Below, in pieces: positions 5,608 to 16,761 of a DNA stretch of 32,486 bases. Position numbers and translations under genes: made by a program. The DNA is from Alteromonadaceae bacterium (GTDB taxonomy: Bacteria > Pseudomonadota > Gammaproteobacteria > Enterobacterales > Alteromonadaceae). Every line of letters begins with the position of its first letter. Position 1 is the stretch's first letter. Below the pieces are notes generated by a model that was not told the DNA's origin, searched no databases, and worked only from the letters and a program-made list of their open reading frames with translations. The stretch is from positions 1 to 32,486 of the forward strand of contig WFQC01000079.1 of the NCBI GenBank assembly GCA_015487235.1. Reading direction: 5' to 3'.

Positions 5608-6060
5608 TTAGGTATTATTTACACCCGAATTGTTATTGTTAATTGCTATTTTTCGTGGTTTGTAAGCTTCTGGAATTTCTCTTTCTAAATCAATATGAAG
5701 CAGACCATTTTCCATACTTGCACCAATCACTTTAACATGGTCACCTAATTGAAATTTACGTTCGAAATTACGCTCAGCAATGCCTTGGTATAAAAAGTTT
5801 CTACCTTCATTATTTTTGTTTGTTGGTTTGGTGCCGGTAATCGTTAAGGTATTTTGCTTTGACTCAATATGCAGTTCATTTTCAGTAAAGCCCGCTACAG
5901 CCATAGAAATTCGATAATTATTTTCCCCTAATAATTCAATATTGTAAGGAGGATAAGCAGGTTGTTTTTCAGCTCTTGATGCTTGGTCCATCAAACTAGC
6001 TAAGTGATCAAAGCCAATAAAAGAACGGTAAAGTGGAGTTAAATCAGTTGAATTACGCAT
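5608..6060 (-). CDS. ibpA: Small heat-shock protein, IbpA type (Hsp20)
   Basis: This ATP-independent holdase coats aggregating proteins and passes them to DnaK and ClpB. The 150 residues carry the IbpA signature: start MRNSTDLTPLYRSFIGFDHL, then PPYNIELLGENNYRISMAVAGF, YQGIAERNFERKFQL and the beta-strand NGLLHIDLEREIPEA. The alpha-crystallin domain spans about residues 37-135. A short C-terminal tail has the oligomerisation motif as IAI (residues 138-140), followed by an Asn-rich end. It is the only ibp gene here, so there is no ibpAB pair in this window. Expression is evidently heat-controlled twice: by a sigma-32 promoter at 6250-6277 and by a ROSE-like leader that covers the Shine-Dalgarno. 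Confidence 0.95.
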   Translation of the reverse strand: MRNSTDLTPLYRSFIGFDHLASLMDQASRAEKQPAYPPYNIELLGENNYRISMAVAGFTENELHIESKQNTLTITGTKPTNKNNEGRNFLYQGIAERNFERKFQLGDHVKVIGASMENGLLHIDLEREIPEAYKPRKIAINNNNSGVNNT

Positions 6061-6064
6061 AAAT

Positions 6065-6161
6065 CATATCCTATTTTATTTTAGCAATATGGTTAAGCTT
6101 TTATCTTGTATTCTATTATCCAGCTTGTTGCTGCGATAATTTAAGTTATTTAAAGCTTAAC
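6065..6161 (-). promoter_or_regulatory. ROSE-like RNA thermometer in ibpA leader
   Basis: In mRNA sense, CAUAUUGCU (6091-6083) pairs with AGGAUAUG (6072-6065), which contains the AGGA Shine-Dalgarno eight bases before the ATG. The pairing leaves one bulged G in the UUGCU strand, which is the hallmark of ROSE thermometers. Upstream, GTTAAGCTTT (6161-6152) pairs with AAAGCTTAAC (6101-6092), 10 bp perfect. It encloses a hairpin of ATTATC/GATAAT plus CAGC/GCTG (6140-6115, loop AACAA). Hairpins upstream of an SD-sequestering hairpin match the layout of known ibpA/hsp20 ROSE leaders. Melting behaviour is inferred, not computed. Confidence 0.72.
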
Positions 6162-6249
6162 GAATGTTTAATGATGCCTTTCAAAAATGAACAGGCGATT
6201 AATGTAGCCCCTGTTTATATAATAAACATTAAGGCGACTACATTAATTA

Positions 6250-6277
6250 ATATGGGGATAGTCAATGAGCTTTCAAG
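6250..6277 (-). promoter_or_regulatory. Sigma-32 (RpoH) heat-shock promoter of ibpA
   Basis: Read on the minus strand, the -35 is CTTGAAA (6277-6271), then a 13-base spacer, then the -10 CCCCATAT (6257-6250). This matches the RpoH consensus CTTGAAA-N13-15-CCCCATNT essentially perfectly. Transcription should start near 6243, giving a leader of about 180 nt. The promoter sits just past the tpx stop codon, so tpx and ibpA are not obligatorily co-transcribed. Confidence 0.85.
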
Positions 6278-6285
6278 CAAAAATA

Positions 6286-6960
6286 TTAATTTTTTTTCTC
6301 TTCTTGAACAGGGGTTTGATCAGTTTTAGGCGTGTTATCGGTTGTAGAGGCTTGCGCTTTAGTTGCTGACATTGCTTTTAACTTAGCTAAAGCTGCATCG
6401 TAGTTAGGGTGGTTTGAAATGTTAGCTACGAGCTCTTTATAAGCAACTTTACCCTGTTGGTCAATAATAAAAATAGCGCGAGTCAGTAAGCCCATATCTT
6501 TAATTAACAAGCCATATTTACTGCCAAAGTCTCGCCATACTGAATCAGACAATACTTTAACTTTGTCAATATTTTCTAACTTACAAAATCGTTTTTGTGC
6601 AAAAGGTAAGTCATTGCTAATGGTTAACATTACAATGTTGTCAGGAAACTGAGCAACTTCTTCATTAAAACGTTTGGTTTGTAAAGAGCATACGCCGGTA
6701 TCTAAACTGGGTACCACAGAAATTAACACAATATTGTTGTTAAATTCTTGTAACTGTACTGGGGTAAAGTTTTCATTAACCACTTTAAAGTTTGGCGCTT
6801 TATCTCCCTCATTAACTTGAGTGCCAAGTAAGGTTACAGCTTTATTGCCAGCCTTTACCAACCCCGTTGTTTCACTAAGTTGTGTTTGGCTAAAAGGTTT
6901 GGCGACTAAGGTGTGAGAAAAAAGCAAATAAAGTAGAAAAAGTGTTAAATATTGTTTCAT
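6286..6960 (-). CDS. tpx: Thiol peroxidase (Tpx family) with signal peptide
   Basis: This is an atypical 2-Cys peroxiredoxin that reduces hydroperoxides. The family motif VVPSLDTGVCSLQTKRFN is present, with Thr88 and peroxidatic Cys91; the resolving residue is Cys126 (RFCKLEN). The mid-region VKVLSDSVWRDFGSKYGLLI is typical of Tpx. Two things differ from the usual protein of about 167 residues. The N terminus is a clear Sec signal peptide (MKQYLTLFLLYLLFSHTLVA, cleavage near residue 20), so it should act in the periplasm. There is also a 25-30-residue C-terminal tail rich in Thr, Gln, Lys and Asp. The electron donor would then have to be a periplasmic thiol system, which is inference. The start at 6960 has only a weak A-rich ribosome-binding site. 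Confidence 0.9.
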   Translation of the reverse strand: MKQYLTLFLLYLLFSHTLVAKPFSQTQLSETTGLVKAGNKAVTLLGTQVNEGDKAPNFKVVNENFTPVQLQEFNNNIVLISVVPSLDTGVCSLQTKRFNEEVAQFPDNIVMLTISNDLPFAQKRFCKLENIDKVKVLSDSVWRDFGSKYGLLIKDMGLLTRAIFIIDQQGKVAYKELVANISNHPNYDAALAKLKAMSATKAQASTTDNTPKTDQTPVQEEKKN

Positions 6961-16355: not shown

Positions 16356-16430
16356 TGGCTGGGGTACAAGGATTTGAACCTTGGAATGACGGGATCAAAA
16401 CCCGCTGCCTTACCGCTTGGCTATACCCCA
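16356..16430 (-). tRNA. tRNA-Gln (anticodon TTG), copy 2
   Basis: The 75-nt gene, CCA encoded, begins TGGGGTATAGCCAAGCGG. The anticodon arm has loop TTTTGAT between GCGGG and CCCGT, the T arm carries GGTTCAAATCC, and the acceptor closes with TACCCCAGCCA. It is identical in sequence to the copy at 16478, 47 bases away. Confidence 0.97.
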
Positions 16431-16477
16431 ACAGGAGGATCTAAAATCGTTACATTAACTTTTTATGCTTTAAAAAG

Positions 16478-16552
16478 TGGCTGGGGTACAAGGATTTGAA
16501 CCTTGGAATGACGGGATCAAAACCCGCTGCCTTACCGCTTGGCTATACCCCA
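16478..16552 (-). tRNA. tRNA-Gln (anticodon TTG), copy 1
   Basis: The 75-nt gene has the same sequence as the copy at 16356: anticodon loop TTTTGAT, T arm GGTTCAAATCC and encoded CCA. It lies third in the Met-Leu-Gln-Gln array. No CTG-anticodon Gln tRNA is present in the array, unlike the E. coli equivalent. Confidence 0.97.
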
Positions 16553-16589
16553 ACAATGTAACGCTTTGCAACATCAATGTTGCTAGAAA

Positions 16590-16674
<85 letters not shown>

Positions 16675-16684
16675 ATTTCTATTA

Positions 16685-16761
16685 TGGTGGCTACACCGGG
16701 ATTTGAACCTGGGACCCCATCATTATGAGTGATGTGCTCTAACCAACTGAGCTATGTAGCC
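16685..16761 (-). tRNA. tRNA-Met (anticodon CAT, elongator)
   Basis: The 77-nt gene begins GGCTACATAGCTCAGTTGG. The anticodon loop CTCATAA lies between CATCA and TGATG, and the acceptor closes GTGTAGCCACCA. The paired G-C first base pair and the absence of the three G-C pairs of the initiator anticodon stem mark it as elongator. It is the first gene after the array promoter. Confidence 0.96.

Follow-up and report, generated by a model that had tools for sequence, protein, structure and literature searches.

The window, by which we mean the whole 32,486-nt stretch analysed, carries the gene ibpA on its minus strand. A thiol peroxidase-like gene lies upstream of it and ends at 6286, with a promoter and a leader in between. 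The encoded protein matches Pfam HSP20 above the cut-off, and its best NCBIfam model is IbpA (177.6 bits, below the curated cut-off of 212). Because the ATG of ibpA is at 6060, the leader is about 180 nt long, counted from a predicted transcription start. The features of the locus, all on the minus strand, are the following:

5608 to 6060, minus strand: ibpA, HSP20 small heat-shock protein of 150 aa, whose GIAERNFERKF keeps the equivalent of Arg93

6065 to 6091, minus strand: hairpin IV, ROSE-like thermometer, CAUAUU-[G6085]-CUA / UAGGAUAUG, covering the Shine-Dalgarno (SD) sequence AGGA at 6072-6069

6092 to 6161, minus strand: 10-bp stem 6161-6152 / 6101-6092, predicted by folding, enclosing hairpin III

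6140-6115, minus strand: hairpin III, AUUAUC-[G6134]-CAGC / GCUG-GAUAAU, inside the 10-bp stem

6176 to 6196, minus strand: hairpin II, GCCU-[G6192]-UUCA / UGAA-AGGC, resembling the first hairpin of the E. coli ibpA ROSE_2 match

6200 to 6244, minus strand: hairpin I, predicted by folding, adjoining the inferred transcription start, with bulged G6235 and a small sub-hairpin inserted at its tip

6250 to 6277, minus strand: sigma-32-type promoter, CTTGAAA (6277-6271)-N13-CCCCATAT (6257-6250)

Downstream of ibpA, a likely intrinsic terminator was recognised by eye at 5559-5530 on the minus strand (AGCCCAAG-TTAATG-CTTGGGCT, then a T run). Elsewhere in the window, four tRNA genes are clustered at 16359-16761, minus strand.

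The sigma-32 consensus is given as NNCTTGAA-N13-18-CNCCATAT (PMC3669281). The window promoter agrees with it, RpoH dependence itself being a prediction. Its score of 15.2 is the maximum of a simple home-made sigma-32 scale; none of 104 base-shuffled leaders reaches this value, and the promoters of the other 103 leaders described below score from 9.5 to 15.2, with the weakest site in L061. An earlier sequence-only reading of this DNA had proposed a consensus sigma-32 promoter CTTGAAA-N13 on the minus strand, a leader of about 180 nt, a UUGCU pairing with the AGGA with one bulged G, and a 10-bp stem enclosing another hairpin. All four are borne out by the promoter score, the position of the ATG and the predicted fold.

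ROSE-like leaders of small heat-shock genes hold two to four hairpins (PMC3669281), and the window leader holds four; in the 3'-proximal one, U(U/C)GCU is imperfectly paired with the SD, which is likewise found here. CAUAUUGCU pairs with AGGAUAUG across the SD site with a single G bulged. In full, the strand CAUAUU-[G]-CUA (6091-6082) is paired with UAGGAUAUG (6073-6065) around a loop of 8 nt, so that CAUAUUGCUA and UAGGAUAUG make up the thermometer helix of the window, with one G bulged. When three stretches were folded to minimum energy, the SD was paired at each of nine temperatures between 0 and 42 C (per-base probability 0.67-1.0), so that the AGGA is closed at low temperature, as the sequence-only reading had required. 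At 42 C the pairing falls modestly, to 0.67-0.95 per base, in the two longer stretches. The AUG is open when the folded transcript ends 6 nt into ibpA and partly paired in the other two stretches.

Leaders of relatives, the named ones being Colwellia and Thalassotalea, were gathered by protein similarity and were thus not selected for their RNA. This gave 112 loci, of which 111 could be placed and 104 are distinct after duplicates were merged (the leaders of L005 and L033 are identical); L003, another Hsp20 gene with its start not placed, was left out of all leader counts. The distinct leaders read UUGCU in 77 cases, UCGCU in 25 and UAGCU in 2, which amounts to U(U/C)GCU in 102 of 104. Covariation had been set beforehand as a check, and it is present. 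In alignment A1, which comprises 101 of the 104 distinct leaders with three long-loop leaders left out, the SD helix has a covariation score of 0.200 against 0.095 in shuffles and at most 0.062 in slid versions. In the same alignment, 94.2% of cells pair (85.7% in shuffles) and 51 cells are changed on both sides (17.6 in shuffles); the number of helix pairs with two-sided change, 3, is no better than the 2.9 of the shuffles. An apparent loss of UUGCU in L043, L056 and L057 was rejected, as these have long loops with an inserted sub-hairpin. The thermometer has an enlarged apical loop of 27-35 nt, wide enough to accommodate a small hairpin, in L004, L008/L043, L056 and L057, and the SD pairing is kept there.

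Models of the known families do not recognise the element. No Rfam ROSE model matched the window at gathering, and none matched within 5900-6350 at E up to 10, so the leader does not reach the gathering score for membership in ROSE, ROSE_2 or ROSE_3. RF01832 had no match in the window's own genome; it matches E. coli ibpA at 100.4 bits. RF00435 and RF01832 (Rfam release 15) at gathering also missed the ibpA leaders of all 15 relatives and of the paralogue that were scanned. This is a gap in Rfam coverage that includes the window; sub-threshold RF00435 matches lie across the ibpA leaders of L048 and L078, at 26 bits against a cut-off of 45. A covariance model, R1, was trained on 24 short leaders from relatives, the window being excluded. 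With 150 of 1703 first-look candidates scored in the window's own 3.07-Mb genome, R1 places the window leader at the top (38.7 bits, E 0.0016). Next come the 5' half of the same leader, at 24 bits (E 0.86), and, in third place, the paralogue's leader, at 20 bits (E 4.7). R1 further matches six of the seven RF00435 loci given to it (E 0.0002-0.025), five of them outside the class (E 0.0003-0.025); L132 is missed, and L130, one of the seven, belongs to the window's own class. The RF00435 loci outside the class are presumably from Alphaproteobacteria. The E. coli ibpB leader is matched at 19.6 bits (E 0.31), and the E. coli ibpA leader is not matched at E up to 10. The relatives' model thus finds accepted ROSE leaders, as expected for common descent, with the E. 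coli ibpA leader missed. As the Rfam ROSE models miss the window and R1 finds RF00435 loci, we regard the element as ROSE-like by motif and descent, outside the Rfam families. The checks named by the sequence-only reading thus gave a mixed outcome: the helix covaries and the SD is closed in the folds, but the Rfam ROSE models find no match.

The paralogue is a second IbpA-like gene of the same genome (L002, contig C93, gene from 1498), 59% identical, with a UUGCU leader at 1415-1503 and its own sigma-32-like site. A third HSP20 gene (L179, C93:5892-6197) follows shortly downstream; its leader has neither the ROSE motif nor a bulged-G hairpin.

The closest characterised systems are the ROSE-like thermometers of E. 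coli and Pseudomonas ibpA, which share with the window the small heat-shock protein gene, the sigma-32 promoter, the bulged-G U(U/C)GCU/SD pairing and more than one hairpin (PMC3669281). The window leader differs in being longer, with four hairpins including the extra hairpin III, in the sub-hairpin at the tip of hairpin I, and in going unrecognised by RF01832. The consensus structure of RF00435 has a bulged G in the first hairpin, NC[G]CC-GGG, and in the last, UUGCU/AGGA, as in the window; in RF00435 loci of other classes, however, the middle hairpins often have no bulged G, and the window is unmatched by RF00435. ROSE-G thermometers of ABC transporter genes also have an SD hairpin with a bulged G, but they use CUGCU with two opposed bulged Gs and serve other target genes (PMC12857270).

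The sequence-only reading had further suggested that the A/U-rich stem of the thermometer is cold-tuned and opens far below the E. coli temperature. With the SD-opening cost in E. coli at 37 C as the yardstick, the window leader comes down to that value no earlier than 39.6 C when computed on the whole leader, or 50.2 C on the last hairpin region. Computed on whole leaders, the medians of such equal-opening temperatures are 33.6 C in Colwellia, the lowest of the four groups, 36.7 C in Pseudoalteromonas, 42.8 C in the Alteromonas group and 44.3 C in Thalassotalea, with wide ranges. By the local measure, Colwellia, at 44.2 C, is hardly set apart from the Alteromonas group (44.3 C), Thalassotalea (46.3 C) and Pseudoalteromonas (51.2 C). 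No consistent cold shift was thus seen across the clade medians of these four groups with nearest-neighbour energies. In favour of cold tuning, some Colwellia leaders are devoid of the closing C-G pair (UUAUUGCU/AGGAUAA). Because the energy model ignores non-canonical pairs and misses the E. coli thermometer hairpin, which is absent from its own predicted minimum, these energies say little either way. With a model this crude for the ROSE motif, strong cold tuning finds no support, and we consider it quite improbable.

Two observations go beyond the sequence-only reading, namely that the same bulged G recurs in the upstream hairpins and that Arg93 of IbpA goes with those hairpins. When whole leaders are folded at 25 C, the upstream hairpins also have a single bulged G in the 5' arm. 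Counted from the inferred start, apical hairpins with a 5' bulged G number 2.80 per leader in the 104 leaders, and all other single bulges together about 0.1 per leader. The corresponding value for 5' bulged-G apical hairpins is 0.03 in 312 dinucleotide shuffles. Equal-length controls give 0.019 (coding start), 0.029 (upstream of the promoter) and 0.048 (downstream), and the antisense control has no bulged-G hairpin on the 5' side. Among the apical single bulges, 291 of 301 are a G on the 5' arm. The pair above the bulge is C-G in 228 and U-A in 63 of these, and the pair below has a pyrimidine on its 5' side in 271 of 291; in 32 of 291 there is just one pair below before a mismatch. RNAalifold, run on a MAFFT alignment made without the array in mind, finds an invariant bulged G in hairpins I and IV and covarying neighbours of the bulged G in hairpin I. 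Covariation in hairpin II is not counted by the tool because this alignment (A2) misplaces hairpin II between clades.

The window leader itself has four bulged-G hairpins, with G6235 (I), G6192 (II), G6134 (III) and G6085 (IV), of which hairpin I is not counted as apical because of the sub-hairpin at its tip. In E. coli, the predicted minimum of the ibpA leader contains two, hairpin IV not among its hairpins, and the E. coli K-12 ibpB leader (L113, in the ibpA-ibpB intergenic region) also has two, AUGCUC[G]CC/GGGAGCAU and CUC[G]CUUC/GAAGGAG. In the Rfam consensus structures, the bulge is already shown for RF00435 in hairpin I and for RF01832 in hairpin II. Among the literature titles searched, none points to a bulged G that recurs in the upstream hairpins of ROSE; older ROSE papers lie mostly outside that scope, so the feature may have been noticed earlier.

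The array extends to wider samples. In 55 more distant gammaproteobacterial leaders, where a few starts may be misplaced (that of L142 was not found or is misplaced), U(U/C)GC(U/C) lies near the SD in 49, and 62 single bulges are a 5' G against 13 of any other kind (shuffles, 0.036 per leader). RF00435 picked out 27 loci, 26 of which lie outside the class; 27 of their bulges are a 5' G and 11 are of other kinds, chiefly in the first and last hairpins, which are contained in the very model by which these loci were chosen. The 12 non-IbpA Hsp20 genes of related genomes had neither a bulged-G hairpin nor, within the last 60 nt, a U(U/C)GCU. In the GTDB family f150 (21 genomes with 18 gene matches, loci L219-L233), 13 of the 16 leaders placed for the hairpin count have a bulged-G hairpin just upstream of the SD and not over it. 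It is of the type UUUAUG[G]CUC/GAGCAUAAA, where either of two neighbouring Gs can be the bulged one, or UUAUU[G]CUC/GAGAAUAA, and appears in folds with and without the SD. Other contacts pair the SD in part, with a mean of 0.36-0.88 at 25 C in the 14 leaders placed for SD pairing. As the folds put the hairpin upstream of the SD, the module is predicted to persist in this family though it no longer covers the SD.

IbpA is reported to bind its own 5'UTR and to repress its own translation in E. coli, V. harveyi and C. neteri, with Arg93 irreplaceable for this self-repression via the 5'UTR (PMC10474464). That system has the same type of gene and leader as the window (PMC10474464), and the window IbpA keeps what it requires, namely Arg93 (GIAERNFERKF) and an aromatic residue at the Tyr34 site (AYPPYN). 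Self-repression has been demonstrated in the three species named; that the bulged-G array is the RNA feature behind it is our own suggestion. It was observed post hoc that three distant genes with neither motif nor array lack Arg93, having Pro, Thr and Gln instead. The sample was then enlarged by the families of two of these three discovery cases and by 60 further genes of the order to 236 gammaproteobacterial ibpA-like genes, the discovery cases included and L235, whose N-terminus is cut, left out. All 60 order genes have Arg93 and thus show conservation, not association. Arg93 is present in 226 genes and missing from 10 (Gln 7, Pro 1, Lys 1, Thr 1) in four lineages. With the last 140 nt folded, at least one 5' bulged-G hairpin is found in 203 of the 226 genes with Arg93 and in none of the 10 without it (Fisher 7.6e-10, a value that ignores the relatedness of the genes and is partly post hoc). 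An SD-paired ROSE core or a bulged-G hairpin is found in 225 of 226 and 3 of 10, respectively, the latter three being loose pairings of a distant UUGCU in the GTDB family f11.

Seven of the 10 genes without Arg93 belong to one genus of this family. These seven Gln genes, which lie within the loci L286-L295, have no bulged-G hairpins; inspected by eye, they read UUACU before the SD, where their relatives read UUGCU, which looks like a change of the bulged G to A. Of the three Arg-bearing genes in f11, two (L292, L296) are also devoid of hairpins in the fold, L296 keeping the ROSE core, and no bulged-G hairpin is folded in 23 of the 226 Arg93 genes of the whole sample. Arg93 was rejected as the sole mark of array genes, since an Arg is aligned at this site in four of nine placeable non-IbpA Hsp20 proteins that have no array. 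E. coli rpoH is a further target of IbpA control. In three folded stretches of its start region, no 5' bulged-G apical hairpin was predicted, which speaks against a universal operator, or rpoH may be bound otherwise. Array hairpins also occur with genes that have another residue at the Arg93 site. E. coli IbpB has Gln there, yet its leader has two array hairpins; as IbpA suppresses ibpB expression (PMC10474464), regulation in trans can explain this case. The three RF00435 loci L119, L123 and L138 outside the class, which have Pro, Gly or Gln in place of this Arg and keep array hairpins, could perhaps be explained likewise, as their genomes may hold other small heat-shock proteins.

We consider it likely, with a probability of about 0.88, that 6061-6277 is the ibpA control region, composed of a sigma-32 promoter and a ROSE-like thermometer. 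That the complementarity arose by chance and the leader is no regulator might be argued from the missing Rfam match and the ease with which A/U-rich sequence pairs, but the covariation, which we judge to refute it, the conservation in 104 leaders and the top rank given to the window leader in its genome by the independent model R1 make this extremely improbable. For the upstream hairpins, a simpler account is that the SD hairpin is the ROSE-like thermometer and the others are mere scaffolds that aid folding or shield the mRNA at its 5' end, the bulged Gs serving the fold. It draws on published work, in which B. japonicum ROSE1 without its first three hairpins responds more weakly to temperature, a role of the upstream hairpins in folding or mRNA stability is suggested, and the SD hairpin alone is sufficient in Pseudomonas (PMC3669281). 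A scaffold does not predict that single bulges are nearly always a G confined to the 5' arm, nor that a pyrimidine stands directly above the bulge, as is the case in 291 of 291. It also does not predict that the bulge persists in f150, where the last hairpin is upstream of the SD, or that bulged-G hairpins are lost together with Arg93. We hold the scaffold account to be somewhat doubtful. A repeated, sequence-specific bulge on varied stems looks like a protein site whichever the protein, so the array might instead be read by another RNA-binding protein or a ribonuclease. We think this unlikely, as it leaves the tie to Arg93 of the encoded chaperone unexplained, as well as the absence of the array from the 12 other Hsp20 genes of related genomes.

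The promoter, the fold, the covariation and the conservation of motif and array come from the present analysis, and the regulatory steps are proposed on the model of characterised relatives. From the sigma-32 promoter, ibpA mRNA would be made under protein-folding stress. Its leader would form four hairpins, all of which have one G bulged out of the 5' arm, and in hairpin IV the U(U/C)GCU-type pairing would hide the SD at growth temperature and loosen on warming. The dual transcriptional and translational heat control put forward by the sequence-only reading is thus probable, on the grounds of the sigma-32 promoter and the ROSE-like SD hairpin and by analogy with E. coli and Pseudomonas (PMC3669281). 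The bulged-G hairpins are candidate docking sites of the IbpA oligomer, for which we see slightly less than even odds. IbpA might, via Arg93, keep its own mRNA shut until unfolded proteins draw it away; with IbpA titrated in this manner and a thermometer over the SD, the leader would read temperature and aggregation together. Judged from sequence comparison, IbpA oligomers perhaps read the array. We tentatively extend this to ROSE leaders of ibpA in general, which may be tandem arrays of one module, a single G bulged between 5'-arm pyrimidines, forming a multivalent operator read by the IbpA oligomer via Arg93. The SD thermometer would then be the module that happens to cover the SD; the modules vanish along with Arg93 and remain where the SD has moved.

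The ordinary part of this finding is a new ROSE-like thermometer behind a sigma-32 promoter, an arrangement known from E. coli and Pseudomonas; the thermometer extends the known class to a clade missed by the Rfam models. The less ordinary part, an array that tracks Arg93, matters more than the thermometer itself. The role of the upstream ROSE hairpins is described as not fully understood (PMC3669281), and an array read by IbpA, if true, would answer this question. Its tie to Arg93 makes that role directly testable. Single-nucleotide deletions of the bulged Gs are predicted to abolish self-repression with the stems untouched. If true, the bulged-G module tied to Arg93 would make one leader sense both temperature and protein aggregation.
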